20,899 nucleotides of DNA from a virus: the IMG/VR virus record IMGVR_UViG_3300014501_000942, positions 1-20,899 of that record. One strand, given 5' to 3'. The notes beneath the pieces are model-generated. The model saw only the letters and a program-made list of their open reading frames with translations, ran no database searches and was not told where the DNA came from. The translations under genes were made by a program, and so were the position numbers. Shown here piece after piece: positions 390 to 20,396 of the stretch (its first letter is position 1; each line of letters opens with the position of its first letter).

Positions 390-1280
390 CTATTGGATCG
401 GAATTTTGCTACCCACGCCCGGGTTTGCGAATTGATAATCGCCGGGGTCCGTCACCAGTACGCCCACCTCAATAAAGATATCGTTTCCCGTGGGTGCGTC
501 CGCTGGAACTTGGAATTCGATCTTGTCAACGCCGATGAGCGACGGCGATGCGCGTGCGGACAAGACCGGCACATTGTGAAAGCTATCGCCGAGCACCAGG
601 GCAACTTAGGCGGCGGTGGAAACGGCATCCACGCCTCGAGGTGGTAGCGCCCCCGTAACGAGAGGCGGTGATGTCGGACCAAGGCCCGTAATGTAAAGTG
701 TTATCTTCTCGCCACGGCGCGCGGAATTCTGGGGGCTTACGAAAGTTCCATCCGGTCGCACGGCCACGGCCCGCCGAACTCCATCGGACATCGTGATCTC
801 GAAAATTCCGGGGCTGGCGGAGTGGATGTCGACTATCGTGGTAAAGGTATGATTAACGGGACCAAAGCCTATATCACCGGAGGTGCCGAGCGAAACCGAA
901 ACAGGCCCCGGCTTTATGTCGCAGGGAACCTGGAAGGTGAACACGCCAAGCAGGGGGTTGGGGGTGCCAAGGATTTGAGCCGGTTCCGAGTTGAAAGTGA
1001 AGCCATACCAATAGAAGTCTGGGTCCTGGAACCAGAACTGCGAGACTGTGGCGAACAAGTTTAGGCCGACCGCATCGAACACTGGGACTGGAGGGAGGCC
1101 TAAGAATGTGCCGATACTGCACGGCGAGAGCGCTCCGGTATTCTTGTCTCCCGTGGCGAAGAAGCCCGCCCCATTGAGGAAACTGGCCTCGGTGAAGTCC
1201 GTAGATGTTTGCGCCGACACCGCCTGCGTGAGGATCACGGCGAAAAGCGCTCTGGCAGGCGAGACTCTGATAATTGACAT
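390..1280 (-). pseudogene. Secreted TIGR03437-domain protein split by an in-frame stop
   Basis: The reading frame starts at ATG 1280-1278, with GGAGG about 7 nt upstream on the minus strand. It opens with a signal peptide (MSIIRVSPARALFAVILTQAVSAQ), predicting an exported protein. A middle region of unknown function is followed by a C-terminal domain like the one common in Solibacter proteins (TIGR03437), with ARRGEKITLYITGLGPT and later VPADAPTGND. A single TAA at 608-606 interrupts this domain between STAA and VALVLGDS. The same frame then continues the expected domain sequence to TAG at 392-390, so there is no frameshift. The natural reading is a nonsense mutation, with a truncated product of about 224 residues. 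A sequencing error or stop readthrough would explain it equally. The role of the domain is unknown. An upstream in-frame start at 1523 would add 81 residues before the signal peptide and is unlikely. Confidence 0.75.
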
Positions 1281-1451
1281 ACAACTGCCTCCGATTGGAT
1301 CCGAATCAGCGCGAGAGCCGAAACGGAGTTTAATCTTCAAAGACTCGGTAGGAAAGCGCCGAACTACAGTTCGGCCCAGATTATTTTTCGGGTGACCAGA
1401 AATTTCGGATTTAAGGCTCGATAATTTCAGTTTCCCATAAGCGAGGATGTC

Positions 1452-1727
1452 ATGGCCGAAGATTTGGTAACCAAAACTCTTGCTATTGCTCAATGGCGGA
1501 AGGCTTTTGAACGCCTGAGCCAAGCTCTGGAAAAAGGCGATATTCCGACGCTACGCGAACTTGCCATTCCTTGCGGCCCGACGGCCTTACTGGGAGATGC
1601 CAAACGCTTGACGTTGCACCGGTCGCAGCCCGCGCTTTCGCGGTGTGTCGCCGACGTCATCGTGCAAATCTCTAACAGCGGCATGCGCATCGAAGGCAAG
1701 CGGCTGGAGCCTCTGGGGAGGAGATAG
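1452..1727 (+). CDS. Small protein of unknown function
   Basis: I do not recognise this 91-residue protein. ATG 1452 is preceded by GAGGA a few bases upstream. The sequence is mostly helical in character (AIAQWRKAFERLSQALEKGDI), with two cysteines and a basic C-terminus (GKRLEPLGRR), and no membrane segment or signal peptide. Nine bases separate its stop from the GTG start of the HTH protein behind it, so the two probably form one operon. They lie beside the tyrosine integrase on the opposite strand, which suggests a role in the integrated element at tRNA-Sec; that is inference from position only. Confidence 0.6.
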   Translation: MAEDLVTKTLAIAQWRKAFERLSQALEKGDIPTLRELAIPCGPTALLGDAKRLTLHRSQPALSRCVADVIVQISNSGMRIEGKRLEPLGRR

Positions 1728-1736
1728 GAGGGGCTT

Positions 1737-2018
1737 GTGTTTGCGATGAACCCGAACCTGCAGGAAGCGGCCAGCGCCGAGCGGCATTACTCGGTGAAAG
1801 AAGTAGCCACCATTTTGAACACGAGCTACAACACGGCGCGGCGGATCTGCCGGGACGACCCGGGCGTGTTGAAGATCTCGTTCCCGCGCGTCTCCCATGA
1901 GCGCAAGCGCGCGCCGCGGGTAACCTTACGCGTGCCGGCGTCGGTTTTGGACCGGCTTCATAAGGAGTGGGCGGCCGGGTTTGGCGCTGAAGCTAAGCGT
2001 GGCCGTCGCCGCGTCTAA
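1737..2018 (+). CDS. Excisionase-like helix-turn-helix protein
   Basis: This 93-residue protein carries a short MerR/excisionase-type HTH (HTH_17-like) at about residues 18-45: YSVKEVATILNTSYNTARRI. A basic stretch follows (HERKRAPRVTLRVPASVLDRL). Such proteins bind DNA as transcription regulators or recombination directionality factors. GTG 1737 is chosen because AGGAGG lies 5 nt before it; ATG 1746 is 14 nt from that site and would shorten the protein by three residues. The last 93 nt overlap the 3' end of the convergent tyrosine integrase. The combination fits a Xis partner, but no binding site or experiment is visible to prove it. Confidence 0.65.
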   Translation: MFAMNPNLQEAASAERHYSVKEVATILNTSYNTARRICRDDPGVLKISFPRVSHERKRAPRVTLRVPASVLDRLHKEWAAGFGAEAKRGRRRV

Positions 2019-2942
2019 GCGAGCCTGATGGGCGGCAATGAAATGGGCGTAATGTCTTTCGGTGGTCTTGAGGCTTTTATGACCCAACAGCAACTGCACA
2101 GTTCGGATATCGACGCCTTGGGTGAGAAGCTCCACGGCAAAGGTGTCGCGGAAGCGGTGCGGGTGAGCATGGACGCCCGCGATTTGCCCCAACCGGTAGA
2201 TGGTGCGGCGCAGGTTCTTGGTGCAGGTGATGGCATCGCCCTCACCGGACCAGAAATAGTATTCGGCCGAGCGGATGACGGGCAGGGCTTCGAGTGCGCG
2301 GATAGCGTCGGGGTGGAGCTGGACCTGGATGCGAACGCCGGTCTTTTTGATCTTGCGCAGGGTCAGGTGCCGCGTTTTGAGGTCGAGCGACGAGCGGCGG
2401 AGCACAGTTACGTCGGAAACGCGCAGACCGCTATAAAGAAGGACCAGCACCAGGGCCCGGGCGCGTGCACGAACGTACGGGGTTTCGCCCGGATTGTCGC
2501 TAAAGATGTCATCCGCGGCGGCGATCAATTTGCGCACTTCGTCGGGCTCAAACGGCAGCGTCTGGAGTTCTTCGGACTGCGGCATGCGGACTTTCTTGGC
2601 GGGGTTTTTGCGGATCCAGTCGGCGTCCACGCACCAGGCGAAGAAGGCGCGCAGGGTTTCGAGTTCCTTGCGCCAGGTCGAGGGCGCGATCGCGCGGGTG
2701 AGGGCATACTTTTGGAGCAGGACGAGATCCACCTTGTCGAGGGGCCCGTGGGCGAAGCTGGACGAGGCCAGATGCCCGAGGGTGTTTTCGTAGCTAGAGA
2801 TGGTCGAGGGCGCGAGATTGCGTTTCGGATCGCGGCAGCCATCGAGGAACTGGGCGATGGCTTCGGAAACGGTGGGCCCGCCTTTCTGGCCGGGGACGTA
2901 TTCGCCGCCGTTTTCGAGCAGGTCGATGCGGTGGAGCGCCAC
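1926..2942 (-). CDS. Tyrosine recombinase (phage/island integrase)
   Basis: This is a site-specific recombinase of the phage integrase family. From the GTG at 2942 there is an N-terminal SAM-like core-binding domain (about residues 25-110) and a catalytic domain (about 130-305). The catalytic residues are visible: R174 in SGLRVSDV, K199/K200 in the beta-hairpin, H260 and R263 in HPHRFRD, H288 in LGHKS and the nucleophile Y298 in TTERHYAHF. The frame stays open upstream to 3101 and looks like genuine integrase sequence (CLCPIWVYGHLNG, YRKTLHTNDWQ). No ATG, GTG or TTG occurs there, so the true start is unresolved. The gene lies just past the 3' end of tRNA-Sec in the same orientation, the usual place for an integrase that uses that tRNA. 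Its 3' end overlaps the convergent HTH gene by 93 nt. Confidence 0.9.
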   Translation of the reverse strand: MALHRIDLLENGGEYVPGQKGGPTVSEAIAQFLDGCRDPKRNLAPSTISSYENTLGHLASSSFAHGPLDKVDLVLLQKYALTRAIAPSTWRKELETLRAFFAWCVDADWIRKNPAKKVRMPQSEELQTLPFEPDEVRKLIAAADDIFSDNPGETPYVRARARALVLVLLYSGLRVSDVTVLRRSSLDLKTRHLTLRKIKKTGVRIQVQLHPDAIRALEALPVIRSAEYYFWSGEGDAITCTKNLRRTIYRLGQIAGVHAHPHRFRDTFAVELLTQGVDIRTVQLLLGHKSLKTTERHYAHFIAAHQARLDAATATLSFSAKPGRPLLMKPVQNRRRHA

Positions 2943-3109
2943 CTGCCAGTCATTCGTATGGAGGGTCTTGCGGTAGGGGCCGCCGTTCAGGTGGCCGTAG
3001 ACCCAGATGGGGCAGAGGCAGAGGGTGAAGTTTTGGCCTTTTTTGCGGCCGGGGGCGCAACCGGCGAGGTGGCGTCGGTAGGGGGTAAGCGTGCCCCTAA
3101 CCTAACATT

Positions 3110-3131
3110 TTTGTACACGGATTTGTACACG
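3110..3131. repeat. Tandem TTTGTACACG repeats before the integrase
   Basis: TTTGTACACG occurs at 3110-3119 and again at 3122-3131, a 12-bp period. Each copy contains the palindrome TGTACA. They lie between the integrase frame and the 3' end of tRNA-Sec. Arm-type integrase binding sites or an operator of the integrase promoter would fit this place; this is inferred from position. Confidence 0.5.
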
Positions 3132-3162: not shown

Positions 3163-3255
3163 TGGCGGAAGCCAGTGGGAGTCGAACCCACCCGCAGCAG
3201 TGCACCGCACGACGGGTTTGAAGCCCGCGCCCAGCACCGGCTAAGACTGGCTTCC
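3163..3255 (-). tRNA. selC: tRNA-Sec (anticodon TCA)
   Basis: On the minus strand the acceptor stem is 8 bp (GGAAGCCA with TGGCTTCC), longer than the usual 7 and typical of selenocysteine tRNA. The anticodon loop contains TTCAAAC with anticodon TCA at 3221-3219, reading UGA. A long variable arm lies between the anticodon stem and the T arm (GGTTCGACTCC). The discriminator is G, followed by an encoded CCA (3163-3165). The gene implies a selenoprotein pathway (SelA, SelB, SelD) elsewhere in the host. In enterobacteria selC is a known insertion site for islands and phages, which fits the adjacent tyrosine integrase. Confidence 0.93.
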
Positions 3256-3261
3256 AGGGTA

Positions 3262-3270
3262 AGTGTACCA
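3262..3270 (-). promoter_or_regulatory. Likely extended -10 promoter of tRNA-Sec
   Basis: On the minus strand TGGTACACT reads as an extended -10 (TGn plus TACACT). It ends 6 nt before the first base of tRNA-Sec, so initiation would fall at the tRNA 5' end. I see no good -35, consistent with an extended -10 type. This is a motif match only. Confidence 0.4.
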
Positions 3271-3295
3271 GACGCGGATGGTCGGGCAGACCGTA

Positions 3296-3324
3296 TTGCG
3301 GCTGGGTGTTTGCAACGCTAGACT
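3296..3324 (+). promoter_or_regulatory. Likely promoter of tRNA-Gln
   Basis: TTGCGG (3296-3301) and TAGACT (3319-3324) are separated by 17 bp and resemble -35 and -10 boxes. Initiation would fall near 3331, just ahead of the tRNA 5' end at 3335. The two tRNAs are transcribed divergently from this roughly 80-bp gap. Confidence 0.45.
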
Positions 3325-3334
3325 GGTCATATAT

Positions 3335-3408
3335 TCCCCGGTCGTCTAATGGTAGGACAGCGGCCTTTGGAGCCGTGAATCGTGGTTCGAATCCATGCCG
3401 GGGAGCCA
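3335..3408 (+). tRNA. tRNA-Gln (anticodon TTG)
   Basis: A complete cloverleaf can be drawn. The acceptor is TCCCCGG (3335-3341) with CCGGGGA (3398-3404). The D stem is GTC/GAC, the anticodon stem GCGGC/GCCGT has loop CTTTGGA (anticodon TTG at 3367-3369), and the T arm has loop TTCGAAT. Discriminator G3405 and an encoded CCA (3406-3408) follow. The gene is intact although a serine recombinase frame enters it from the right on the opposite strand and stops in the D arm (3346-3348). It is therefore probably the attachment gene of the prophage to its right. Confidence 0.95.
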
Positions 3409-4941
3409 GTTATCAGTTTTGGCCTTTTTCGCTCCTCTCTTCCGGTGAAGCGCTTCGGCTTCCTGGTGTGCAACCGCCAACAAGTCAAAGGGTTGCCGGT
3501 ATTCGGCGACCACCGCGCCGTCCTTCCAAACGCAGTTCGAAAGTAAAAAATTGAGGAGTTGCCGTTTTTCCACCGGTTGCTGTCTTTCGAACAACTGGGG
3601 TGCGCGTTGCACCAGGCGCAAGAGTTGGACGCCCTCGTCTATGTACGTCCTATTCGCGTTCTGGTGGGCTTCGACGTCGCGCAGAATGCGGTCCTGCTCA
3701 CCCCGCCACTCGGCCGATTTGCGGTCGAAGAAGCCGGCATCGATCCTGCCGTCGAGCTTGTCGACATACATGCCATCGATTCGATCCTGAAGCTTCCGGT
3801 ACTCTGCTTGAAGACGTCCGATCGCGTCGTCGTGGAACTTCTTCTCGTCAACGTGGCTCTCGCGGAGGGCCGTCACCATCCACTCAAGCACATCCTTTTC
3901 GAACGTCAGGCTCCTGAGGAGCTTTGTGAACTGTTCCTCCAACACCTCCTCCCGCACGTAGCGTTCCGGGCACTTCCCCTTGTACCTCGAGCAGTGATAG
4001 TAGACGTACCGCTCCTTCTTCAGTTCGCCTACGATGGCGCAGCCGCAGTGGCCGCAGGAGAGCAGCCCGCTGAACGCGAACTCGTGCGTGCGCATCTTTG
4101 CGGACTTGGCTCTCTTGCCGGCTAAAACCATCTGAACCTGGTCCCACAATTCCCGCGACACGATCGGCTCATACGTGCCTTTGTAGGTCTGCCCATCAAA
4201 ATCGAAATCACCGCTGAAGATGCGGTTGCGGAGCAGGAGGCTTATGGTGGAGACTGGCACCGGGTTCTGCGTTTTCCTGAACGCCAATCCATCGGCTCGC
4301 GCTAGCGTTGCGATCTGCTTCAGGTTGTAGTTCCCGCTCGCGTAGCGCTCGAACATCGTTCGGATCATTGGCCCTACCACCGGATCGGGCTGGATCGTGC
4401 GCTTGCCGTCTTGCCCCATCACGTTGAGGTATCCCATCGGCGCGAACGACGGCCAGATCCCTTGGCGCGCCTTCTCCAGCATTCCCTTCTTCGTCTCCTC
4501 CGACAGGTTGTCGATGTAGTTCTTGGCCATGAGGACCTTGATGCCGTGCATAAATTTCTCGGACGATCGCGAGTCCTGCGAGATCACGATGTTCTCCTTG
4601 ACGAGGTGAATTTCTAGGCCAAGTTCGTCGAGGGTCACCCAGTCCTTCAGATTTCGATACAGGCGGTCGGTCTTTTCGACGAGCAGGATCCGGCAGGTCT
4701 TGTTCCTCCGCAGGAACGCCAGCATCTCGCCGAAGCCAGTTCTACCAGCTTGCTTGGCTGTCTCGACGTCGATGAACTCCTGGAGAACGTCCAAGCTCCG
4801 GTTGGCCGCGTACCCGCGCAACAGCTGAAGCTGGGCGGGGATCGAGAACCCTTCGCGTTCTTGGTCCTTTGAGGAAACGCGGGCATAGACTACCGCGCCC
4901 CAATGTGTGCCAGATGGTTGAGCATGTGGTTTCGACGGCAT
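3346..4941 (-). CDS. Large serine recombinase (prophage integrase)
   Basis: This 531-residue protein is a site-specific recombinase of the large serine type. The resolvase catalytic domain spans about 14-165, with nucleophile Ser23 in YARVSSKDQ and the conserved KTDRLYR stretch. The recombinase domain is about 185-280. A zinc ribbon follows with C296, C299, C317 and C324, then a coiled-coil-rich region (about 330-460). Such enzymes integrate phage DNA between attP and attB through a covalent serine-DNA link. ATG 4941 is the first good start and has no clear ribosome binding site. The last 20 codons or so (from WLPGMDSNHDS) are antisense to tRNA-Gln, and the stop lies in its D arm. The C-terminal tail is thus partly dictated by the target and would differ in the excised phage if the crossover falls in the tRNA. 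Confidence 0.93.
   Translation of the reverse strand: MPSKPHAQPSGTHWGAVVYARVSSKDQEREGFSIPAQLQLLRGYAANRSLDVLQEFIDVETAKQAGRTGFGEMLAFLRRNKTCRILLVEKTDRLYRNLKDWVTLDELGLEIHLVKENIVISQDSRSSEKFMHGIKVLMAKNYIDNLSEETKKGMLEKARQGIWPSFAPMGYLNVMGQDGKRTIQPDPVVGPMIRTMFERYASGNYNLKQIATLARADGLAFRKTQNPVPVSTISLLLRNRIFSGDFDFDGQTYKGTYEPIVSRELWDQVQMVLAGKRAKSAKMRTHEFAFSGLLSCGHCGCAIVGELKKERYVYYHCSRYKGKCPERYVREEVLEEQFTKLLRSLTFEKDVLEWMVTALRESHVDEKKFHDDAIGRLQAEYRKLQDRIDGMYVDKLDGRIDAGFFDRKSAEWRGEQDRILRDVEAHQNANRTYIDEGVQLLRLVQRAPQLFERQQPVEKRQLLNFLLSNCVWKDGAVVAEYRQPFDLLAVAHQEAEALHRKRGAKKAKTDNWLPGMDSNHDSRLQRPLSYH
3360..3408. other. Presumed attachment site in the 3' half of tRNA-Gln
   Basis: The recombinase gene abuts and enters tRNA-Gln, and phage genes continue without host genes to the right. 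The crossover therefore most likely lies in the anticodon-to-CCA part of the tRNA. The tRNA is intact, so the phage would have supplied an identical 3' portion. The matching right-hand copy is not in the window, so the exact core cannot be fixed. Confidence 0.45.
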
Positions 4942-5186: not shown

Positions 5187-5570
5187 ATGAGAGCAGATAA
5201 CGTGGCAAGAGAAAAACCGGAACGCTTTGGCGCAAGGGTTCGACGATTGCGGGAGCAGCAGCAGATCACGTTGCGGAAGTTCGCGGAGAAGATCGGAATC
5301 AGCCCAACCTACCAGTCCAAGGTTGAGCGCGATGAGTTTCCACCTCCCGGAGAAGAAACAGTACGGCGAATGGCGCAGATCCTTGGTGAAGATCCAGATG
5401 AACTTCTCGCACTTGCCGGCAAGGTCGCGTCGGACCTCCCCGAAATCATTCAGAAACAGCCGCGGGCGATGGCTACATTCCTGCGGGCAGCAAAAGGGCT
5501 GTCGGCCCAAGAGATTGAAAGGTTTACAAAGCAGGCAAAGGATATGCGGAAGCGGCCTCGGCCGAAGTAG
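5187..5570 (+). CDS. XRE-family phage repressor
   Basis: This 127-residue protein has an N-terminal lambda-Cro/CI-type HTH at about residues 14-70 (ARVRRLREQQQITLRKFAEKIGISPTYQSKVERDE). A helical, charged C-terminal part follows (LSAQEIERFTKQAKDM). It has no LexA/CI-type autoprotease domain, so it is unlikely to self-cleave. It is followed after 63 nt by an ImmA/IrrE-type metallopeptidase. In ICEBs1 of Bacillus, ImmA cleaves the XRE repressor ImmR to induce the element, and the same pairing is a plausible switch here. It is transcribed divergently from the serine recombinase. It probably binds the palindrome in its own promoter; this is inferred. Confidence 0.85.
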   Translation: MRADNVAREKPERFGARVRRLREQQQITLRKFAEKIGISPTYQSKVERDEFPPPGEETVRRMAQILGEDPDELLALAGKVASDLPEIIQKQPRAMATFLRAAKGLSAQEIERFTKQAKDMRKRPRPK

Positions 5571-5633: not shown

Positions 5634-6347
5634 ATGGTGAAAGTGAAGTACTTGTCGAAACAGCAAATTGAGTTGAACGCCGGCAGGTTGTTGGCGGACT
5701 TCGGCAAAAACTTCGGTGTAGTTGAACAGCCCCCGATACCCGTCGAGGAGATCCTGGAAACGCACCTCAAGTTGACGATGGAGTTCGACAATCTGAGGTC
5801 CCGACTTGGATTCCCGGATATTCTCGGAGCACTGTGGGCGCCGGATCGACTGGTCGGCATTGACGAAAGTCTGGACCCCAGCGAGTTTCCTCAAAAGGAA
5901 GGACGCTATCGCTACACGGTGGGCCACGAGATAGGCCACTGGGAGCAGCATCGGCACTATTTCCTCACCGATCCAAATCAGGGAGACATGTTCCCCGAGT
6001 TGCGCAAGGAGCCATCCGTGATTTGTCGCGTGAGCCAGGCCAAGGAGCCAATCGAATGGCAAGCCGACTACTTCTCCGCGTGTCTCCTGATGCCCAGCGG
6101 GATGGTCGTCGCGGCGTGGAGGCAGCAGACAAATCCCTCGCCTTACTCGACGAATAGCGGAACTCATGAGTATTGGCGGTCTATGAATGTGGCGGCCTCG
6201 GACGCACCACTATCGCCGGATTTGGCGGCCGTTCAGCTCGCGCGACGCTTCCAGGTTTCGAAGCAAGCCATGAAGATCCGTTTGGAGGAATTGAACCTCC
6301 TCCCGCAGGCGACCGGCCCGCTCTTCTCGGATCAGGTGAGCGGCTGA
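5634..6347 (+). CDS. ImmA/IrrE-type metallopeptidase
   Basis: This 237-residue protein is a zinc peptidase of the ImmA/IrrE family (DUF955). The metal site is visible as H98-E-I-G-H102 in GHEIGHWEQH, with a probable third ligand region at E141-W-Q-A-D145. ATG 5634 follows GGAG with a short spacer. The C-terminal third (LSPDLAAVQLARRFQVSKQAMKIRLEELNL) resembles the HTH-like tail often seen in these proteins. It sits directly behind an XRE repressor, the arrangement in which such enzymes relieve repression by cutting the repressor. The substrate here is inferred, not shown. The family assignment is secure from the HExxH motif, size and position. Confidence 0.88.
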   Translation: MVKVKYLSKQQIELNAGRLLADFGKNFGVVEQPPIPVEEILETHLKLTMEFDNLRSRLGFPDILGALWAPDRLVGIDESLDPSEFPQKEGRYRYTVGHEIGHWEQHRHYFLTDPNQGDMFPELRKEPSVICRVSQAKEPIEWQADYFSACLLMPSGMVVAAWRQQTNPSPYSTNSGTHEYWRSMNVAASDAPLSPDLAAVQLARRFQVSKQAMKIRLEELNLLPQATGPLFSDQVSG

Positions 6348-9531: not shown

Positions 9532-9641
9532 GTGTGACGGTGTGACGTGGTGTGACGGCGAATCCTGGAAGTTTTTCGATTGGCCGCATCGCGAATGGTT
9601 TCTTAGTGGTTTTCCTGTCACACGCTGTCACACCGTCACAC
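9532..9641. repeat. Mirrored GTGTGAC repeat cluster
   Basis: GTGTGACG occurs at 9532, 9540 and 9550. Its reverse complement GTCACAC occurs at 9617, 9627 and 9635. The start spacings are 8 and 10 on the left and 10 and 8 on the right, so the two sets form a 25-bp inverted repeat (9532-9556 with 9617-9641) with 22 matches and a 60-bp centre. The cluster lies between the replication protein and the MerR-type gene. It could be a replication origin (iterons) or an operator; the sequence alone does not decide. Confidence 0.7.
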
Positions 9642-10516: not shown

Positions 10517-10821
10517 AGCAACGCAGGCAAGTTGGCGGGCGGTACCTCGCTCGCGCTCGTGGAGCATTCGTTCGGAATGGTAAGCTGCCACCCGTTAAAG
10601 CCGTAGGTACTTCCCGGCGCGCGGCGGCGGCGCGTTGAAGAGTAGCGCAACTTCGCTAGCGTCAGCCGAAAAAAGAGGTGGTCGGTGGTCACCTGCCCGG
10701 CGCGCCTGTGGCGGCCGCCCGCCAGCCTGGTAGGACGGGCCAACCCGCCGCGCCTGGGCGCGACGTGGGCCAACAGTGCGCGAAGGGGTGGCCAACGACG
10801 CCGTGGCGAAGTAGTCCAACC
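10517..10821. other. Gene-poor stretch before the methyltransferases
   Basis: About 305 bp without a gene I can support. It is very GC-rich. GGCCAAC occurs three times (10738, 10768, 10790), and CTTCGCTAGCG lies near 10651. A frame opens at GTG 10678 and joins the methyltransferase frame. Its 48 extra residues are Pro/Ala/Gly/Arg-rich without domain character, so I treat this as non-coding, perhaps leader or regulatory sequence. Confidence 0.4.
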
Positions 10822-12366
10822 GTGAACCTCGTGCTCCAAGAACCCGTTTCCATTACGCCCGCACTGGCTCGGCGTATCGAGATATGGCAGGTGGGCCGCC
10901 TGGTGCCGTACGCGCGGAATGCGCGCACGCACTCGGACGCCCAGGTTGCGCAGATCGCGGCATCCATCGCGGAGTTCGGCTTCAACGCCCCAATCCTCGT
11001 GGACAGTAACGCCGGGATCGTCGCCGGCCACGGTCGCCTGCTGGCGGCGCGCAAGTTGGGTCTGCCGGAAGTGCCTGTCGTCGTCCTGGACCATCTCAGC
11101 GACACGCAGAGGCGCGCGTACATCATCGCGGACAACAAGCTCTCGGAGAATGCGGGCTGGGACGAAAAACTCCTGGCCGCGGAACTCACCGATCTGGAGC
11201 ACGAGGGCCTGGACCTCCGGCTCGTTGGATTCTCTGACGAGGAGTTGGAAGCGCTGCTGGCGAATGACGGTGATGGTTCTGAACCGGAAGACGAAGAGCC
11301 GATTCCGGAACCACCCAGCCAGCCAATTACCCAGCCCGGCGACGTGTGGTTGATCGGAAACCATCGGCTGATCTGCGGCGACTGCCGCGACTTCGATGTC
11401 GTCGAGAAGGTCCTCGAGGGGAAGCGCGCGAACGTGGTGATTACTTCGCCGCCCTACGCCACGCAGCGCGAGTACGATTCCACCAGCGGCTTCAAGCCAG
11501 TGCCTCCTGAAAAGTACTGCGATTGGTTTCGCGTTGTCGCCGCCAACATCCAGGCGGTCCTCGCGCCCGACGGCTCGTACTTTCTCAACATCAAACCTCA
11601 CGCCGAGGATGGCGAGCGCAGTTTGTATGTGATGGATCTCGTCCTGGCGCACAAGCGGCAGTGGGGCTGGCGCTTCGTCGATGAACTCTGCTGGCGCAAG
11701 ACTGACAACGGTGTGCCGGGCGGCTGGGGCAATCGCTTTAAAAACGCCTGGGAGCCCGTCTACCATTTCTGTCGCCAACCCGAAATCAAGTTCCGGCCAA
11801 AAGCGGTCGGGCACGTGTCCGAAGATTGCTTCGACTACTCACCCAACAACCCCAAATCGACTTCCGGCAGCGGGCTGCTGGGCACGGGAGCGCGCGGGAC
11901 TGCCGCCCAGAAACCTGGAGCGTCGGACGACGATGGACGCTTTCGTGGCGTTGCGCGCCCGAGCAATGTGATCGAGGCCAGGACGGAATCCAACCAGGGA
12001 TCACACTCCGCTCCTTTTCCACGCGGCCTGGCTGAGTTCTTCGTCAAGGCGTTCACGGACAGCGGAGACGCGGTGTTCGATCCGTTCCTGGGAAGCGGGA
12101 CCACGATGGCCGCCGCGGAAATACTCGGGCGCATCGGATTGGGTTGCGAGATCAGTCCGTCCTATTGCGATGTGATCCTGCGCCGAATCTCGAACCTGAG
12201 CGGCGAGATCCCGGTGCTACTCGGCACCCGTCAGGCGCTCAACGAAGTCGCTACCGCACGCGGCGTCCCGCTTGAGCAGGCTGACAATCCCCGCGCACGA
12301 GACGCCCGGTGCATTCAGCACCACGGGCCGGCACCGTTCTACGGGAGCCGCCGGAAGGTTTCCTGA
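10822..12366 (+). CDS. ParB-domain DNA methyltransferase, TSPPY type
   Basis: This protein of about 514 residues joins a ParB/sulfiredoxin-like N-terminal domain to a beta-class DNA methyltransferase. The ParB part (about 25-150) has GIVAGHGRLLAARKLG. The catalytic motif IV TSPPY is at about 208-212, and the S-adenosylmethionine motif FDPFLGSGTT comes later, at about 419-428, the order of the beta class. SPPY is most often seen in N4-cytosine enzymes, though N6-adenine cannot be excluded. GTG 10822 is chosen over GTG 10678 because the extra residues have low complexity. Neither has a clear ribosome binding site. Four bases separate it from a second enzyme of the same architecture. Such orphan phage enzymes usually protect DNA from host restriction or influence packaging; no nuclease gene is beside it. 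Confidence 0.88.
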   Translation: MNLVLQEPVSITPALARRIEIWQVGRLVPYARNARTHSDAQVAQIAASIAEFGFNAPILVDSNAGIVAGHGRLLAARKLGLPEVPVVVLDHLSDTQRRAYIIADNKLSENAGWDEKLLAAELTDLEHEGLDLRLVGFSDEELEALLANDGDGSEPEDEEPIPEPPSQPITQPGDVWLIGNHRLICGDCRDFDVVEKVLEGKRANVVITSPPYATQREYDSTSGFKPVPPEKYCDWFRVVAANIQAVLAPDGSYFLNIKPHAEDGERSLYVMDLVLAHKRQWGWRFVDELCWRKTDNGVPGGWGNRFKNAWEPVYHFCRQPEIKFRPKAVGHVSEDCFDYSPNNPKSTSGSGLLGTGARGTAAQKPGASDDDGRFRGVARPSNVIEARTESNQGSHSAPFPRGLAEFFVKAFTDSGDAVFDPFLGSGTTMAAAEILGRIGLGCEISPSYCDVILRRISNLSGEIPVLLGTRQALNEVATARGVPLEQADNPRARDARCIQHHGPAPFYGSRRKVS

Positions 12367-12370
12367 GCTT

Positions 12371-13615
12371 ATGAAGACCGAACTCCACGTGCAGCAGTGG
12401 CCAGTTGAAAAACTGATCCCCTACGCCCGCAACGCCCGCACCCACTCCGAGGAGCAGGTGGCGCAGGTGGCTGCCAGCATCATCGAGTTCGGCTGGACGA
12501 ATCCGATCCTGGTCGGCGCGGACGGGGTGATCATCGCTGGCCACGCGCGGTTGGCCGCGGCGAGGAAGCTGAAGCTGACCGAAGTGCCGGTCATCGTCCT
12601 GGATCATCTGACTCCGACGCAGCGCCGGGCCCTCGTGCTCGCGGACAACCGGCTGGCGCTTAGCGCCGGGTGGGACGAGGAGATGCTGCGCGTGGAATTG
12701 GAGTCGCTCGAGGAGGATGGCTTCGACCTCGACCTGGTCGGATTCACCGACGAGGAGGTTGAGGAACTCCTGCGCGATCCGGAGGAGTCCAACGTTGGAC
12801 TGACTGACGACGACGCGATTCCTGAAGAGGAGGAGCACGCGATCACCGTGCTCGGGGACGTCTGGGTGATGGGTGAGCACCGGCTCCTGTGTGGCGATGC
12901 CACCAGCATGGACGCGGTGCAGACGGTCCTCTCCGGCGGCTTGGCCGACATGGTCTTTACGGACCCGCCGTACAACGTCGATTACGAAGGCAAGACCGCC
13001 AAGAAGCTCAAGATCGGCAACGACACGCTGGGCGGCAAGTTCTATGAGTTCCTGCGCGATGCCTGCGCGAACGTGCTGGCGGTAACGAAGGGCGCCATCT
13101 ACATCTGCATGTCATCGTCGGAGCTGCACACGCTCCACCAGGCGTTCACCGACGCCGGCGGCTACTGGTCCACGTTCGTGATCTGGGCGAAGCACCATTT
13201 CACGTTGGGGCGGTCGGACTACCAGCGGCAGTACGAACCGATTCTCTATGGCTGGCGCAAGGGCACGGATCACTTCTGGTGCGGCGCGCGGGACCAGGGC
13301 GATATCTGGTTCATCAAGAGGCCCGCATCGAGCCCGGAGCATCCGACGACGAAGCCGGTGCAGTTGGTAGAGCGCGCGATTCGCAACAGCAGCAAGACGC
13401 GCGACACCATCCTCGATCCGTTCGGCGGATCGGGCACGACGATGATCGCGTGTGAAAAGTCGGGACGGCAGGCGCGGCTGATCGAGTTGGAGCCGAAGTA
13501 CTGCGACGTGATCGTCCGTCGCTGGCAGGCGTTCGCCGGGCGGGAAGCGAAGCTTGAGTCCGACGGGAAAAGCTACCGCGAGGTCGCCGGAGTGCGAAGC
13601 GCAGTGGCAGCGTGA
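12371..13615 (+). CDS. ParB-domain DNA methyltransferase, TDPPY type
   Basis: A 414-residue paralogue of the preceding enzyme. The ParB-like domain (about 5-130) has GVIIAGHARLAAARKL. Motif IV TDPPYNVDYEG is at about 197-207 and the S-adenosylmethionine motif LDPFGGSGTT at about 348-357, again the beta order. DPPY is characteristic of N6-adenine methyltransferases. The linker 135-165 is acidic, as in the first enzyme. ATG 12371 lies 4 nt after the previous stop and aligns with the paralogue's IPYARNARTHS start region; an in-frame upstream ATG at 12272 would overlap the previous gene and is rejected. The two genes probably arose by duplication and then diverged in target base. The stretch HPTTKPVQL is typical of these enzymes. 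Confidence 0.9.
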   Translation: MKTELHVQQWPVEKLIPYARNARTHSEEQVAQVAASIIEFGWTNPILVGADGVIIAGHARLAAARKLKLTEVPVIVLDHLTPTQRRALVLADNRLALSAGWDEEMLRVELESLEEDGFDLDLVGFTDEEVEELLRDPEESNVGLTDDDAIPEEEEHAITVLGDVWVMGEHRLLCGDATSMDAVQTVLSGGLADMVFTDPPYNVDYEGKTAKKLKIGNDTLGGKFYEFLRDACANVLAVTKGAIYICMSSSELHTLHQAFTDAGGYWSTFVIWAKHHFTLGRSDYQRQYEPILYGWRKGTDHFWCGARDQGDIWFIKRPASSPEHPTTKPVQLVERAIRNSSKTRDTILDPFGGSGTTMIACEKSGRQARLIELEPKYCDVIVRRWQAFAGREAKLESDGKSYREVAGVRSAVAA

Positions 13616-14337: not shown

Positions 14338-14826
14338 ATGCCAGCAATGAGCCAGCGGGCGTATGCCCGCCATCGCGGAGTCGCGCTGTCCGCTGTGCAG
14401 AAGGCGATTGAAACGGGGCGCATCTCGACGCAGCCAGACGGGAAGATCGACTCCGAACAGGCGGATGTCGAGTGGGAGCAGAATACCAGGCGGCACGCGC
14501 CGCCGGTCGCCAAGCGTGAGCAGGAAGATGACGACGCTTCGCTCTTCGGCGCTTCGCAGTACACCAAGGCGCGCGCCGTGCGCGAGCACTACCAGGCGCG
14601 GCTGGCCAAGATCGAGTACGAAGAGCGCGTGGCCAAGCTCGTCGCGAAGGACGAAGTTCAAGTGGCCGCGTTCAACAAGTTCCGGCAGTTCCGCGATCAC
14701 ATCCTGAACATTCCGGATCGCGTGGCGGCGATGGTGGCCGCTGAAACCGAAGCAGCGAAGTGCTACGAAGTCCTGGCGACCGAGATTAGAAGGGCGCTGA
14801 ATGAGTTTGCTGACTCCAACGGCTGA
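14338..14826 (+). CDS. Terminase small subunit, Nu1-like
   Basis: A 162-residue protein; ATG 14338 or ATG 14347 may be the start. The N-terminus (MSQRAYARHRGVALSAVQKAIETGRI) is a winged HTH-like DNA-binding domain of the Nu1 type, which recognises the packaging site. A central helical part follows (TKARAVREHYQARLAKIEYEERVAKLV), and then a segment that would contact the large subunit. It overlaps the large subunit gene by 26 nt, the expected partner. It starts a run of closely packed head genes. Upstream sequence lacks an obvious promoter, and GGGGA lies near the start as a weak ribosome binding site. Confidence 0.82.
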   Translation: MPAMSQRAYARHRGVALSAVQKAIETGRISTQPDGKIDSEQADVEWEQNTRRHAPPVAKREQEDDDASLFGASQYTKARAVREHYQARLAKIEYEERVAKLVAKDEVQVAAFNKFRQFRDHILNIPDRVAAMVAAETEAAKCYEVLATEIRRALNEFADSNG

Positions 14827-16720
14827 AGAGATCTACTCGGCAGCGGCGGCGGCTGGAGCGCGGCCGGACCCGATGCTGACGATCTCGCAGTGGGCCGACA
14901 AGTACCGCGCTCTCTCACAGCGCGCATCGGCTGAGTCGGGACCGTGGCGCACGGAGCGGACACCCTATCTGCGCGAGATCATGGACTGCCTGTCGCCATC
15001 GTCGCCCGTCGAGCGAACGGTCTTCATGAAGGGCGCGCAGATCGGCGGCACCGAGTGCGGAAACAACTGGATCGGCTATGTGATCCACCAGGCGCCCGGC
15101 CCCATGATGGCGATCCAGCCCACCGTGGAGATGGCCAAACGCAACTCGAAGCAGCGCATCGATCCGCTGATCGAGGAATCGGAGGTGCTGCGCGCACTGG
15201 TCAGCGATCCGCGGTCGCGCGACTCCGGGAACACAGTTCTGTCAAAGGAGTTCCCCGGTGGCGTGCTGGTGATGACCGGCGCGAACTCCGCGGTCGGCCT
15301 CCGCTCCATGGCGGCGCGGTATCTGTTCCTTGATGAGGTGGACGGGTATCCAGGCGATGTGGAGGGCGAAGGCGATCCCGTGAACTTGGCGACCGCGCGC
15401 ACCAGGACGTTCGCGCGCCGCAAGATCTTCATGTGCTCGACGCCGAAGATCACGGGCATGTCCCGGATCGAGGCGGCATTTGAAGAAAGCGACAAGCGGC
15501 TCTACTGGGTGCCGTGTCCGGTTTGCCGCGCGTTCCAGACGCTAAAGTTCGCTCAGTTGCGCTGGCCAAAAGGAGAGACAGAGAAGGCGGTCTACATCTG
15601 CGAGCATTGCGGGCAGGAGATTCACAACCACCAGAAGCAGTCGATGCTCGCTTGCGGCGAGTGGCGGCGCAGCGCTGTTGGCGACGGCAAGACGGCCGGC
15701 TTCCATCTCTCCAGTCTCTATTCGCCGGTCGGGTGGTTCGCGTGGTCGGACGCAGCCAAGCAGTTTGAGCAGGCGCAGAAGAATTCCGCGCTGCTTCAGG
15801 TCTTCGTCAACACCGTGCTGGGCGAGACGTGGACGCTGTTAGGGGAAGCACCGGAGTGGCAGAAGCTTTATGACCGGCGGGAGTCGTACAAGGTTGGCAC
15901 CGTACCGCCTGGCGGCCTGTTCCTTACGGCTGGCGCGGATGTGCAGAAGGACCGCATCGAGGTTGAGGTCACCGCATGGGGTCGCGGCAAGGAGTCCTGG
16001 TCGGTCGATTATCGGGTGTTCGAAGGGGACACCTCGCGGCCGCAGGTCTGGGAGAAGCTCACTGGACTGCTGAACGAATCCTTCTCCACCGAGTCCGGCC
16101 TGGAATTGCAGATCCTGCAACTCGCCGTGGATTCGGGCTTTGCCGCCATCGAGGTGTACCAGTGGGCGCGACGCCAGGGCGGGCGGGTGCTGGTCATCAA
16201 GGGCGATTCGCGAACGCCCGCGCTCATCGGATCGGCCGCGCCGGTGGAAGTCGGGCCAGCGGGCGCCAAACTGAAGCGCGGCGTGCGAGTGTGGCCGGTG
16301 AATTCCGGCATGGCCAAGGAAGAGTTGTACCGGTGGCTGCGCCAGGATCGGCCGACGGATGAGGACGTGGCGAAGGGGATTCCATTCCCACCGGGATATT
16401 GTCACTTTCCTCGCTACAGCGAAGAGTACTTCAAACAGATCACCGCCGAGCAGTTCGTGACGAAGATCGTCAAGGGGTATCGCCGACACGAGTGGCAGAA
16501 GATGCGCGAGCGCAACGAGGCGCTCGATTGCCGGGTGTATGCACGCGCTGCCGCTGGACGGGTCGGTATCGACCGTTTCCAGGAGAAGCACTGGGCCGAC
16601 CTCGAGCGGCGGGTGGGCAGACCTCGAGTGAACGAAGTCAAACAAGCACCGCAGCAAACGCAGCGCACGGATGGCAGGCAAGCCGCCCGTAACCAGGTGC
16701 GCTTCAGGATGGATCTCTAA
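14801..16720 (+). CDS. Terminase large subunit, GpA family
   Basis: This 639-residue protein is the packaging motor and cutting enzyme. The N-terminal ATPase (about 50-280) has a Walker A-like stretch KGAQIGGTE (77-85) and Walker B YLFLDE (174-179). A zinc ribbon is formed by C239/C242 and C267/C270. The C-terminal nuclease has acidic residues in GADVQKD (D380, D384), AVDSGF and EALDCRVYA. Length matches lambda gpA (641). The final 40 residues are Gln/Arg-rich, probably for prohead binding. It overlaps the small subunit by 26 nt, and its TAA overlaps the next ATG in TAATG. The GpA type indicates a lambda-like packaging strategy, perhaps with cohesive ends, though no cos site was identified. 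Confidence 0.95.
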   Translation: MSLLTPTAEEIYSAAAAAGARPDPMLTISQWADKYRALSQRASAESGPWRTERTPYLREIMDCLSPSSPVERTVFMKGAQIGGTECGNNWIGYVIHQAPGPMMAIQPTVEMAKRNSKQRIDPLIEESEVLRALVSDPRSRDSGNTVLSKEFPGGVLVMTGANSAVGLRSMAARYLFLDEVDGYPGDVEGEGDPVNLATARTRTFARRKIFMCSTPKITGMSRIEAAFEESDKRLYWVPCPVCRAFQTLKFAQLRWPKGETEKAVYICEHCGQEIHNHQKQSMLACGEWRRSAVGDGKTAGFHLSSLYSPVGWFAWSDAAKQFEQAQKNSALLQVFVNTVLGETWTLLGEAPEWQKLYDRRESYKVGTVPPGGLFLTAGADVQKDRIEVEVTAWGRGKESWSVDYRVFEGDTSRPQVWEKLTGLLNESFSTESGLELQILQLAVDSGFAAIEVYQWARRQGGRVLVIKGDSRTPALIGSAAPVEVGPAGAKLKRGVRVWPVNSGMAKEELYRWLRQDRPTDEDVAKGIPFPPGYCHFPRYSEEYFKQITAEQFVTKIVKGYRRHEWQKMRERNEALDCRVYARAAAGRVGIDRFQEKHWADLERRVGRPRVNEVKQAPQQTQRTDGRQAARNQVRFRMDL

Positions 16721-16932: not shown

Positions 16933-17168
16933 TGGATCGGCTCGGGCGAGTGGCCGCCGCCGCGCGAGGTTTGGGCAGTCAGTTCGTTGCAGCGTGCCGG
17001 AAGGAAACACCGGCAGTCCTCGAAAAGATCTTGTTCTTCGGTGGCATGGGCTCCGTGGTATGGGGCTGCTGGATGATATACCGCCCACTCGGTCCAATCA
17101 TCGGCGGCGTGCTGGCTGTCTGGCTTGGAATGTTGATCTCCGTGGAGCGCAATGAACCTCGTTCGTAG
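16932..17168 (+). CDS. Small membrane protein between gpW and portal
   Basis: A 78-residue protein from ATG 16932, coupled to gpW by TAATG. A TTG 12 nt upstream is possible but unneeded. After a basic N-terminus there are two hydrophobic segments (about residues 34-50, FFGGMGSVVWGCWMIY, and 54-73, GPIIGGVLAVWLGMLISV) separated by a short RPLGP turn, suggesting a two-span hairpin in the inner membrane. It overlaps the portal start by 17 nt. Lambda has no membrane protein here. It could be a holin-like or exclusion protein, but I see nothing specific. Confidence 0.65.
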   Translation: MDRLGRVAAAARGLGSQFVAACRKETPAVLEKILFFGGMGSVVWGCWMIYRPLGPIIGGVLAVWLGMLISVERNEPRS

Positions 17169-18723
17169 GGCCGCCGCGATGACCATCGCGCCGCCGCGCA
17201 CCCGCGCGATGGGAACGTTCCCGTTCGATGCTGCCGGGCGTGGGCGTCGGGGAATCGGGTGGAATCCGCCGTTCCTCGGCCTGAACACGCTCCTGTTTTC
17301 GCACGGCCTGGAGTTGCAGGCGCGGAACCGTGACGCGGTTCGCAATAGCGCCTGGGCGGCGGGGGCCGTGGATTCGTACGTCGCCAACGCGATCGGGCGT
17401 GGGATTCGCCTGGTGCCGCACCATCCGGACGAGAAGGTGCGCGACCTGATCACCAGGAAGTGGAATCGGTGGACTCGGGAGTGCGACGTCGAGTACGACC
17501 CGCGGAATCCTGCATCTGGCCAGACGGATTTCTACGGCCAGCAGATGGTGATCGCGCGCGAAGTCATGGAGGCGGGTGAATGCTTCGTCCGGTTCCGGCC
17601 CCGTTCTGTGAAGGAAGGGCTTACCGTTCCGCTGCAACTCCAGTTGATCGAGGCCGAGCAGTTACCGTTGTGGCGCACGGCGGTCGAGCGGATGCCGCCG
17701 AACAACTCTGTGCGGTGCGGCATCGAGTTTCAGACCGACGGTCGGCGCGCGGCGTACCACTTCTGGAAGGCGCATCCGGGCGAGACGATGTTCTTCCCGA
17801 TGGACGCTCTATCGGTCGAACGCGTGCCGGCCACGGAGGTGCTGCACGTTTACAAGCCCATCCGCGCGGGCCAGTTCCGGGGACAGCCGTGGCTGACATC
17901 GGTGATTGCGAAGCTCTACGAACTGGAGCAATACACGGACGCGGAGATCGTCCGCAAGAAACTCGCGGCGATGATCACCGGGTTCATCACGCAGGCCAGC
18001 CCGGACAATCCGATCATTCCACCAGACCAATACCAGAACGGGCCGACTCAGACGGAGCCGGGAGCGCAGATCAGCAAGCTCGAACCCGGCACGTTTCAGG
18101 TGTTGAACTTCGGCGAAGAGGTGCAGTTTGCCGAGGCGAAGGACAGCGGCGATTTCAAATCGTTCATCAGGAGTTGCCTGCAAGCTTTCGCGAGTGGGGC
18201 CGGGCTCGCCGAGTACCAGATCAGCGGCGACTTGTCGGGGATCAACTATTCCTCGATCCGGGCCGGTCTGCTGGAGTTCCGCCGCAAGTGCGAGCAGTAT
18301 CAGCATTCGGTTTTCATTTTTCAGGTCTGCCATCCGGTCTATAAGCGGTGGCTGCGCGAAGCGATGCTCGCGCTGGTGTTCGGCATAGACCTGTTGAACG
18401 CGTACAACAAAGATCCCGAGCCGTTCGAGGAAGTGCAGTGGGTCACACCCGGCTGGCCGTGGGTCGATCCCGAGAAAGACATCAAGGCTTCCAACGATGC
18501 GATCCGCAGCGGTCTCTCCACGCGTTCGGCTGAGGTTGCGGCGCAAGGGCGCGACGCCGGTGCCGTGGATGCTGAGCAGACAGCAGATAACAAGCGGGCG
18601 GACAAACTTGGGCTGTCCTACGACAGCGATGGCCGCAAGGTCCTGACTGGGCGCAACGCCGGATTGACGGAGACCGAGATCCAACAGGACGCGGCCAAGG
18701 GCGAGGTGGACGTGAAGCCATGA
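17152..18723 (+). CDS. Portal protein, lambda gpB family
   Basis: This 523-residue protein is the portal, the dodecameric ring at one head vertex through which DNA enters and leaves. The length is close to lambda gpB (533). Typical stretches are RNRDAVRNSAWAAGAVDSYVANAIGRGIRLVP near residues 58-90 and QLQLIEAEQLP. FFPMDALSVERVPATEVLHVYKPIRAGQFRGQPWL lies in the middle, and SGDLSGINYSSIRAGLLEFRR later. ATG 17152 is preceded by GGAG. It overlaps the membrane protein before it by 17 nt and the protease after it by 4 nt (ATGA). The C-terminal 60 residues are acidic and variable, as usual in the family. Confidence 0.93.
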   Translation: MNLVRRAAAMTIAPPRTRAMGTFPFDAAGRGRRGIGWNPPFLGLNTLLFSHGLELQARNRDAVRNSAWAAGAVDSYVANAIGRGIRLVPHHPDEKVRDLITRKWNRWTRECDVEYDPRNPASGQTDFYGQQMVIAREVMEAGECFVRFRPRSVKEGLTVPLQLQLIEAEQLPLWRTAVERMPPNNSVRCGIEFQTDGRRAAYHFWKAHPGETMFFPMDALSVERVPATEVLHVYKPIRAGQFRGQPWLTSVIAKLYELEQYTDAEIVRKKLAAMITGFITQASPDNPIIPPDQYQNGPTQTEPGAQISKLEPGTFQVLNFGEEVQFAEAKDSGDFKSFIRSCLQAFASGAGLAEYQISGDLSGINYSSIRAGLLEFRRKCEQYQHSVFIFQVCHPVYKRWLREAMLALVFGIDLLNAYNKDPEPFEEVQWVTPGWPWVDPEKDIKASNDAIRSGLSTRSAEVAAQGRDAGAVDAEQTADNKRADKLGLSYDSDGRKVLTGRNAGLTETEIQQDAAKGEVDVKP

Positions 18724-20396
18724 CGAATCTGACTCGTGTTGCGTCGCGGTTTGTGAACACGCCGCTCATGATTCACCCGCCCAAGCTGGACGTGATCGTC
18801 CAGGCGTTGGGGCCACGGCTGGGCATCATTCCGTTGACCGGCGTGAAGCCCGTCGTTGAGCCGTTCGCCACCGCTTACATGGACCAGGCCGCCGACAGCG
18901 GCTACCAGGTGATCGACGGCGTCGCGATCATTCCGATCCAGGGAGTGCTGACGAAAGCGGAATCCTGGGTTTCGGCGCTGAGTGGTTGCAGCTCCTACGC
19001 GCAGATCGGGGGCTACCTTCAGGACGCCGTGAACGACGCCGGAGTGCGGGCCATCCTGCTGCAGGTTGATTCGCCGGGCGGCGAGACCACGGGCTGCCTG
19101 GAACTGTCCGACTTCATCTACTCGATTCGCGGCGCGAAGCCAATCTATGCGGTTGCTGACGACTTCGCGTTCTCGGCGGCCTACGCTCTTACGAGCGCAG
19201 CCGACAGGATCTTCATCACGCGCATGGGCGCGGTCGGGTCGGTCGGCGTCGTGGTGCTGCATACCGAGGATTCCAAGTTCAACGACGAGCAGGGGTTCAA
19301 GTACACCTACATCTTCAAAGGCGACAGGAAGGTCGATGGGAACCCGCATGAACCGTTGTCGGAGCGGGCCGAGAAAGACATCCAGTCCGAGATTGACCGG
19401 CAGTATAACCAGTTCGTAGCAACGGTCGCGCGGAACCGGAAGGCCGACGCAGAGAAGATCGTCGCGACGCAGGCCGGCGTGTTCTGGGCGGAGAATGCCG
19501 TTCCGCTCCTGGCCGACGAAGTCGGAACGCTGGGCGATGCCATGAACGCGCTTCGGAAACTGCTCGGCGAACCTGTCCAGAATTCAACGGCGGCGATGGC
19601 CGCAATATCCACAACCAAGGAGGTAACAGCGAGTATGCCCAACGAAACGCTTTCAATCGCCGCCGAGGGTAAGAAGCCAGGTGACGGTGACGGCGATGAG
19701 AAGAACAACAACGAACCGAAGTACTGCCACGCATGCGGTACCAAGCTTCACGCGGATGCGACTTTCTGCCACGCCTGTGGCACGAAAGCCGAAGGCGAGG
19801 CATCCGGTAAGTTCTGCCACGCCTGCGGTGCCGAGTTGCGCAAAGGCGCGGAGTACTGTCACGCCTGCGGCGAGGGCGCAAAGAGCGATGCCAAGAAACC
19901 GGAGGGCGCGGCCCCTCTTGCGGGAATCGCTGCGGTGGCCGGTCTGCCGTTAAGGATGCGTCCCGAGGGCGACATCGAAGCCATCGGCGCGCTGTGCAAG
20001 ATGGCGGGCTGTCCCGACAAGGCCGCGGAGTTCCTCACGAAGAAGAAACCCAACGGCCAATATTTCAGCGTGGCGGATGTCAGTGAGGAATTGACCGCCG
20101 CCCGCGTGATCGAAAGCGAGAGGAGCATGATTACTTCGCACGTCAACCCGAACCAGGGCGCAACGGGCTCGCTTCAGGAACTTGAAGCCCAAGCCACTTC
20201 CTACGCCCGCCAGAATCGCGGCAAAGAGACTCCGAATCTCTACGCCGAAAGCGGTACCACCAAGCTGACCAAGGAGCGCGCCTACGCTCAGATGCTCGAA
20301 GAGCATCCCGAGGTTTACGGCGCGTTCGTGGCGCAGCATAACGCGAAAGGCCTGATCGCCACGCTCGAGCGGGCTGGCATTCGCCTCGCCCGGTAG
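18720..20396 (+). CDS. S49 head maturation protease/scaffold with double zinc ribbon
   Basis: This 558-residue protein corresponds to lambda gpC. The N-terminal S49 (SppA-like) protease (about 65-275) has nucleophile Ser152 in FAFSAAY and probable general base Lys204 in GDRKVDGNP, with DSPGGE as the oxyanion turn. The C-terminal part is scaffold-like, ending in an alpha-helical region. Between them, residues 336-383 hold four CxxC knuckles (C336/C339, C350/C353, C366/C369, C380/C383). Each reads CHACG, spaced as two zinc ribbons. This insertion is not part of the lambda protein. An excellent internal ribosome binding site and in-frame ATG (19635) lie just before it. The enzyme would degrade the scaffold and trim capsid proteins. 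Its start overlaps the portal stop (ATGA). Confidence 0.9.
   Translation: MTNLTRVASRFVNTPLMIHPPKLDVIVQALGPRLGIIPLTGVKPVVEPFATAYMDQAADSGYQVIDGVAIIPIQGVLTKAESWVSALSGCSSYAQIGGYLQDAVNDAGVRAILLQVDSPGGETTGCLELSDFIYSIRGAKPIYAVADDFAFSAAYALTSAADRIFITRMGAVGSVGVVVLHTEDSKFNDEQGFKYTYIFKGDRKVDGNPHEPLSERAEKDIQSEIDRQYNQFVATVARNRKADAEKIVATQAGVFWAENAVPLLADEVGTLGDAMNALRKLLGEPVQNSTAAMAAISTTKEVTASMPNETLSIAAEGKKPGDGDGDEKNNNEPKYCHACGTKLHADATFCHACGTKAEGEASGKFCHACGAELRKGAEYCHACGEGAKSDAKKPEGAAPLAGIAAVAGLPLRMRPEGDIEAIGALCKMAGCPDKAAEFLTKKKPNGQYFSVADVSEELTAARVIESERSMITSHVNPNQGATGSLQELEAQATSYARQNRGKETPNLYAESGTTKLTKERAYAQMLEEHPEVYGAFVAQHNAKGLIATLERAGIRLAR
19617..19637 (+). promoter_or_regulatory. Internal ribosome binding site and start for a nested scaffold
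   Basis: AAGGAGGT (19617-19624) is a full-strength Shine-Dalgarno sequence. It lies 10 nt before an ATG (19635-19637) that is in frame with the S49 protein at residue 306. In lambda the scaffold Nu3 is made in exactly this way inside gene C. The spacer is slightly long but workable. Confidence 0.65.
19635..20396 (+). CDS. Nested scaffold protein, Nu3-like, with zinc ribbons
   Basis: Starting at the internal ATG, this in-frame product would have 253 residues and lack the protease domain. It begins MPNETLSIAAEGKKPGDGD, an acidic disordered leader. The two zinc ribbons follow at about residues 31-78 of the nested product. The scaffold part comes next (DKAAEFLTKKKPNGQYFSVADVSEELTAARVIESERSM), and the helical C-terminus includes ELEAQATSYARQN. 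By analogy with lambda Nu3 it would assemble the prohead core and be removed by the full-length protease. Expression is inferred from the strong ribosome binding site, not shown. Confidence 0.6.
   Translation: MPNETLSIAAEGKKPGDGDGDEKNNNEPKYCHACGTKLHADATFCHACGTKAEGEASGKFCHACGAELRKGAEYCHACGEGAKSDAKKPEGAAPLAGIAAVAGLPLRMRPEGDIEAIGALCKMAGCPDKAAEFLTKKKPNGQYFSVADVSEELTAARVIESERSMITSHVNPNQGATGSLQELEAQATSYARQNRGKETPNLYAESGTTKLTKERAYAQMLEEHPEVYGAFVAQHNAKGLIATLERAGIRLAR

Follow-up and report, generated by a model that had tools for sequence, protein, structure and literature searches.

The 20,899-base IMG/VR viral contig IMGVR_UViG_3300014501_000942, analysed here in its entirety as the window, is very probably a piece of a Bryobacterales-like chromosome in which two elements, a serine-recombinase prophage and a tyrosine-recombinase module, sit back to back in divergent transfer RNA (tRNA) genes. 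These are a tRNA-Sec gene on the minus strand (3163-3255; anticodon TCA, CCA end encoded; Rfam RF01852, 76.7 bits) and a full tRNA-Gln gene on the plus strand (3335-3408; anticodon TTG; Rfam RF00005), the latter apparently regenerated at the left junction of the prophage. The original prediction had described the two genes as transcribed away from each other across about 80 bp, the 3' end of tRNA-Sec being bordered by a tyrosine recombinase and that of tRNA-Gln by a large serine recombinase (LSR); ARAGORN and Rfam agree on the arrangement, with a gap of 79 bp, and domain matches identify both recombinases. To the right of tRNA-Gln the hallmarks of a tailed-phage prophage (terminase, portal and head protease) are all present. 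The contig stops short of the outer boundary of both elements, its right end lying inside the prophage. The host is predicted to be Bryobacterales-like (Acidobacteriota) because a protein with the Solibacter C-terminal domain, a host gene or cargo, is encoded left of tRNA-Sec (606-1523, minus strand; NCBIfam TIGR03437, E 1e-13).

The LSR is a 531-aa integrase encoded on the minus strand (3346-4941; PF00239, PF07508 and PF13408; phrog_95, integrase). Its Resolvase domain is followed by a Recombinase domain and a zinc ribbon, its length falls within the ~450-600 aa range of the class, and the translation places the catalytic Ser23 in a YxRxS context (YARVSSKDQ). Beyond the mere adjacency noted previously, the LSR gene overlaps tRNA-Gln: its final 20 codons and its stop codon, which falls in the D-arm, are tRNA-Gln sequence read antisense, and the C-terminal end of the protein, WLPGMDSNHDSRLQRPLSYH before the stop, is an antisense reading of the tRNA.

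This placement recurs among relatives. In a sample of 200 genomes from the likely order of the host (that of G009), LSR relatives at E<=1e-80 were found in 18. Where the 3' flank was readable, 20 of 28 relatives, the window included, terminate inside a tRNA 3' end, and in every such case the integrase is antisense to the tRNA. The targets comprise Gln(TTG), Gln(CTG), Asn, Pro (three anticodons), Ala and Ser; neighbouring rows of the LSR tree tend toward the same target, with deep branches poorly resolved. Among viral contigs, two 77% LSR copies have endings identical to that of the window's LSR, and the match returned by a first pattern search there was rejected as an unrelated phage tRNA array. 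As judged from gene placement, tRNA use is a trait of this Acidobacteriota LSR group rather than a peculiarity of a single phage. We additionally observed an apparent tandem insertion site in G390, with two tRNA-Gln(CTG) 3' ends 105 bp apart (L030 2900-3130) and a third 17.4 kb off beside a serine recombinase.

Far junctions could be mapped for related serine elements. On long contigs, the far end carries a tRNA fragment at tRNA-Pro in G228 (a 43-bp exact repeat at a distance of 29,112 bp) and at tRNA-Asn in G340 (a 47-bp repeat, mismatched at two positions, at a distance of 56,026 bp). At tRNA-Gln itself, G300 has an LSR 51% identical to the window's, and the 9-bp sequence GGGGAGCCA occurs once in the 49.7 kb downstream of this tRNA, at 26.8 kb, where it separates an island side, carrying TIR and SLOG genes, from a host-type side with beta-propeller, porin, pyrroloquinoline quinone (PQQ) and kinase genes. 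This copy is followed 33 nt on by TTGACAGCA, which is the flank of empty sites and lies 32-36 nt past tRNA-Gln in 14/112 loci, compared with 38/20,000 random windows (0.2%). Read from sequence, the G300 junction serves as an empty-site test for an element related to that of the window. Two side observations were made: a conserved TTTTGTTGACAGCA..GTATCC..ACATTCCGCAG arrangement follows tRNA-Gln at 32-36 nt in 14/112 loci (L012, L007, L011 and 11 more), and the TIR-domain and SLOG-domain genes within the G300 element (L126 7401-9445) resemble defence cargo.

Because GGGGAGCCA recurs in G300, and because the LSR-bearing loci L064, L067 and L069 diverge after TGGCTCCCC, we predict a 9-bp attL core for the serine system at 3400-3408 (plus strand) in the window. 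Comparison of relatives places a putative phage-side half-site, TTTTGGCC..TTTT, beside it at 3409-3435 (plus strand); this segment is partly conserved among relatives and also encodes the LSR residues preceding Trp512. The prophage-side DNA of the LSR-bearing contigs of G549, G300, G591 and G473 showed no repeat of the 25-nt tRNA-Gln end, which suggests either a short core or incomplete contigs. Repeats of at least 10 nt that would fit as the far end at tRNA-Gln were likewise absent, even with 37-50 kb of prophage-side contig, and a 9-nt scan gave a candidate far end in G300 only. A pair of near-identical 18-mers (17/18), AGTTTTGGCCTTTTTTGC at 3029-3046, within the tyrosine recombinase gene, and AGTTTTGGCCTTTTTCGC at 3415-3432, 6 bp past tRNA-Gln, is probably a chance resemblance, since the two lie within the coding sequence of two unrelated genes.

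A core of this length bears on how the integrase gene ends. With GGGGAGCCA as the core, the final 17 codons and stop after Trp-Leu-Pro are probably host DNA in the prophage and would be phage-derived in the circle; an attP situated at the gene's 3' end would carry the integrase frame antisense into the tRNA, where it would stop. In G300, the prophage LSR ends in WLP followed by GMDSNHDSRLQRPLSYH, as against WLP followed by IVDAFRTISSHNQLFAG in the predicted circular form, for which the predicted LSR ending is WLPIVDAFRTISSHNQLFAG and a stop. In relatives at tRNA-Ser and tRNA-Asn the reading frame ends 1-3 codons past the Trp, indicating that a long tail is not required across the LSR family and ruling out the tail as a conserved functional motif in general. 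The long tail is likely a by-product of the attP position at the 3' end of the gene, and a regulatory role is possible but unsupported. We consider it unlikely that the target completes the integrase gene in the full sense, with a C-terminus that depends on state, host-tRNA-derived in the prophage and phage-derived in the free circle; if true, such a C-terminus could influence the direction of recombination. The odd ending MDSNHDSRLQRPLSYH of such integrases is explained as tRNA-derived.

On the other side of the tRNA pair, the tyrosine recombinase frame (1926-3101, minus strand; 391 codons; PF00589 E 2e-25 and a SAM-like domain) starts 62 bp past the 3' end of tRNA-Sec and retains the catalytic R, HxxR and Y motifs (GLR, HPHRFR and HYAHF). 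Convergent to it lies a small helix-turn-helix (HTH) protein (1737-2018, plus strand), a likely excisionase by comparison with homologues, which are found near recombinase relatives in L080, L082, L083, L084, L085 and L086. Between tRNA-Sec and the recombinase, GTACAAATCCGTGTACA (3112-3128, minus strand) is unique in the window and is a candidate arm-type site; its 17 bases also precede the second tRNA-Sec fragment in G479. This genome holds the closest recombinase relative (58% identity) and the same gene order as the window, namely recombinase, tRNA-Sec, tRNA-Gln. The recombinase points away from tRNA-Sec in the window and in G479 and toward it in G447 and in G595, which has a further recombinase match at tRNA-Sec. 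All three of these relatives carry a second tRNA-Sec 3' end lacking the 5' part (3/3 with a recombinase at tRNA-Sec, in a 32-genome set), and in G009 and G526 a second 3' fragment lies on the same contig, 0.9-1.0 kb from the tRNA. From identity blocks of 22-23 nt in these five genomes, the attL block of the tyrosine system is predicted to be the last 23 nt of tRNA-Sec (3163-3185, minus strand). The ~1 kb between tRNA-Sec and the second 3' end in G009 (L014 232-1258) and G526 (L099 9047-10011) is a possible mini-element; that of G009 contains two small genes on the minus strand, toxin-antitoxin-like by eye, and no integrase. No relative of the tyrosine recombinase was found in the viral contigs searched.

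The tyrosine recombinase frame carries ACG at the position of the ATG start of the G479 gene (L080), and its first ordinary in-frame start is a GTG at 2942, 53 codons on. This ATG-to-ACG change may have left the module inert, or it may reflect an error in the contig at the start codon. The apparent loss of the start codon could also be taken to favour the leading alternative, namely a fixed, Xer-like chromosomal tyrosine recombinase gene that happens to neighbour tRNA-Sec, with the prophage as the sole insertion. A tRNA-Sec attR is indeed absent from the window, and the downstream motif AACTTACAG, which lies beside tRNAs in other such elements, is not visible there. We nevertheless judge this explanation improbable. 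The protein scores far below the curated XerC/XerD cut-offs (121 vs 335 and 107 vs 330 bits), and relatives at E<=1e-60 occur in just 7/200 genomes, among them at tRNA-Sec (G479, G447), at tRNA-His (G498, G554) and near a transfer-messenger RNA (tmRNA; G530). The original prediction had named a tyrosine integrase region fixed in the chromosome as one finding that would undo it; this sparse and varied distribution, together with the tRNA-Sec fragments described above, shows the opposite.

The divergent tRNA-Sec/tRNA-Gln pair recurs in other Bryobacterales, and the sequence on either side of it varies. On the 3' side of tRNA-Gln, 26/90 sites have a recombinase within 2.5 kb, a figure slightly inflated by a few loci chosen for carrying the LSR, compared with 1/105 on the 5' side. 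This excess on the 3' side and the recurrence of the pair argue that the placement of recombinases beside these tRNAs is not due to chance. In addition, tRNA-Gln 3' ends are repeated on one strand of one contig in 10/80 genomes, 0.2-58 kb apart and some in tandem. At tRNA-Sec, a recombinase was detected at 4/31 sites, the window included; the profiles derive from the window's own recombinase families, and distant integrases may have been overlooked in these counts. G009 provides a second case in which both tRNAs have been used: a tRNA-Sec repeat is present there, and tRNA-Gln has a tyrosine recombinase beside it. As anticipated, empty pairs also exist: G007, G008, G011, G488 and G501 have no recombinase detected beside either tRNA. 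The proposed compact double hotspot holds in so far as both tRNAs serve as targets in relatives, but the divergent pair is present in only 17/108 tRNA-Gln loci, pointing to two independent hotspots that are adjacent in this lineage. Duplicated tRNA 3' ends, which had been expected at the outer boundaries, are found for both tRNAs in relatives and not within the window, where the contig is too short.

The recurrence of the pair also bears on a second alternative, that both tRNAs are phage genes within a single element carrying two integrases. Phages sometimes carry tRNA genes and the record is an IMG/VR viral contig, but several Bryobacterales genomes have the divergent pair with neither flank of the window, the window tRNA-Gln is identical at 74/74 positions to the chromosomal tRNA-Gln of many Bryobacterales, and the Solibacter-type protein is encoded on the left side, all of which makes this explanation very improbable. 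A chance position of the LSR beside tRNA-Gln, with integration at another site, would fit the missing serine attR and is scarcely credible given the shared tRNA-ending orientation of 20/28 homologues and the att repeats mapped in G228, G340 and G300.

Several points do weigh against two elements inserted back to back in the tRNA pair. Neither tRNA end has a copy in the window by repeat search or by ungapped 16-40 nt scans, which gave nothing above chance, leaving both outer boundaries as predictions; for tRNA-Sec, a second 3' fragment was not found in the 3.1 kb on its left, where the contig ends. The second tRNA-Sec copies of G479, G447 and G595 are on other contigs, and most relatives are metagenome-assembled. 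Core length varies among LSR relatives, from 9 bp in G300 to 43-47 bp in G228 and G340, and 8/28 relatives end outside tRNA genes. Three of these eight (L064, L067 and L069) retain TGGCTCCCC and then continue into other DNA, which is host-like in the two scanned. Secondary-site insertion or later loss of the tRNA are possible readings of these three loci; a free-phage attP is unsupported for L067 and L069, which have host-like genes past the core, and L064 extends <1 kb past it.

Under the favoured reading of two back-to-back insertions, the LSR of a tailed phage would have recombined attP with the acceptor (3') end of tRNA-Gln(TTG). With the tRNA end GGGGAGCCA supplied by the phage, tRNA-Gln would stay intact at the left junction; its displaced end would be at the right junction, past the end of the contig. 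The left element, comprising the tyrosine integrase, the excisionase-like HTH protein and a candidate GTACA-type arm site, would have entered by recombination within the segment of tRNA-Sec from the T-arm to the CCA end, as islands in relatives appear to have done. A displaced fragment TCGACTCCCACTGGCTTCCGCCA, without the 5' part of tRNA-Sec, is predicted left of the contig, and the changed start codon may mean that the module is no longer mobile in the window.

The other annotated genes of the right-hand element are on the plus strand. Beyond the LSR gene lie genes for a phage repressor-like HTH protein (5187-5570; PF13560; PHROGs), an M78 (ImmA/IrrE-like) metallopeptidase (5634-6347; PF06114; phrog_87) and a phage primase-helicase (7245-9524; Prim-Pol and D5_N, by domain and PHROGs matches). 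An inverted repeat with GTGTGACGG-type units directly follows the primase gene (9532-9641) and is a possible replication or regulatory site. Two DNA methylases (10678-12366, PF01555 E 6e-35; 12272-13615, PF01555 E 2e-28) each have a ParB-like N-terminus below the gathering threshold (PF02195, E 3e-5 and E 2e-5, respectively). They are followed by the terminase large subunit (14801-16720; phrog_15, E 5e-257), the portal protein (17152-18723; phrog_21, E 5e-97), the head maturation protease (18720-20396; phrog_53, E 9e-94) and a head scaffolding/decoration-like protein (20418-20801; phrog_673). The C-terminal half of the protease gene encodes four zinc-ribbon-like CHACG units (19722-19870).

Finally, we compared both elements with known systems. 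In enterobacteria, selC islands exploit the tRNA-Sec 3' end through a tyrosine recombinase. Compared by target site and host, the left-hand element uses the same end, but in another host phylum and with tRNA-Sec 79 bp from a second targeted tRNA. Tyrosine islands in the Islander resource similarly show a regenerated tRNA at one end, a displaced fragment at the other and target switching (PMC4383910). That resource states that no serine integrase is known to use a tRNA gene as its target, in contrast to the right-hand element described here (PMC4383910). Serine integration into tRNA genes is described as rare, a 2011 survey naming phiRSM and one Mycobacterium group (PMC3218068). The Ralstonia filamentous phages phiRSM1 and phiRSM3 use a resolvase/invertase-type serine recombinase with a 13-bp core at the 3' end of tRNA-Ser (PMC4471427). 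They share with our element the insertion of phage DNA at a tRNA 3' end through a short core (13 bp, and a predicted 9 bp here) and differ in being filamentous, in their recombinase type and in using one tRNA, whereas here LSRs of ~530 aa, a tailed phage, several tRNAs and a frame ending in the tRNA are involved. The Mycobacterium actinomycete integrative and conjugative elements also integrate at a tRNA gene (tRNA-Leu) by serine recombinases (PMC3218068), but are conjugative, actinobacterial and confined to one tRNA, a distinction drawn from their description. The LSR target survey of Durrant et al. similarly reports LSRs with defined attB sites and families with several targets, and its main text does not mention tRNA targets (PMC10083194). 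Precedents for serine integration into tRNA genes are few, and a later report may exist, subscription journals being mostly outside our coverage.

Taken together, our results describe, in soil acidobacteria, a little-known LSR group that docks in tRNA genes, with the integrase gene running into the targeted tRNA. The mapped attL/attR pairs are now available as testable sites, and conserved attB sites in tRNA genes would be useful for integration vectors in the Acidobacteriota, which has few genetic tools. Set beside the known systems, the right-hand element is a variant of tRNA-targeted serine integration and the left-hand element is an ordinary tRNA island.
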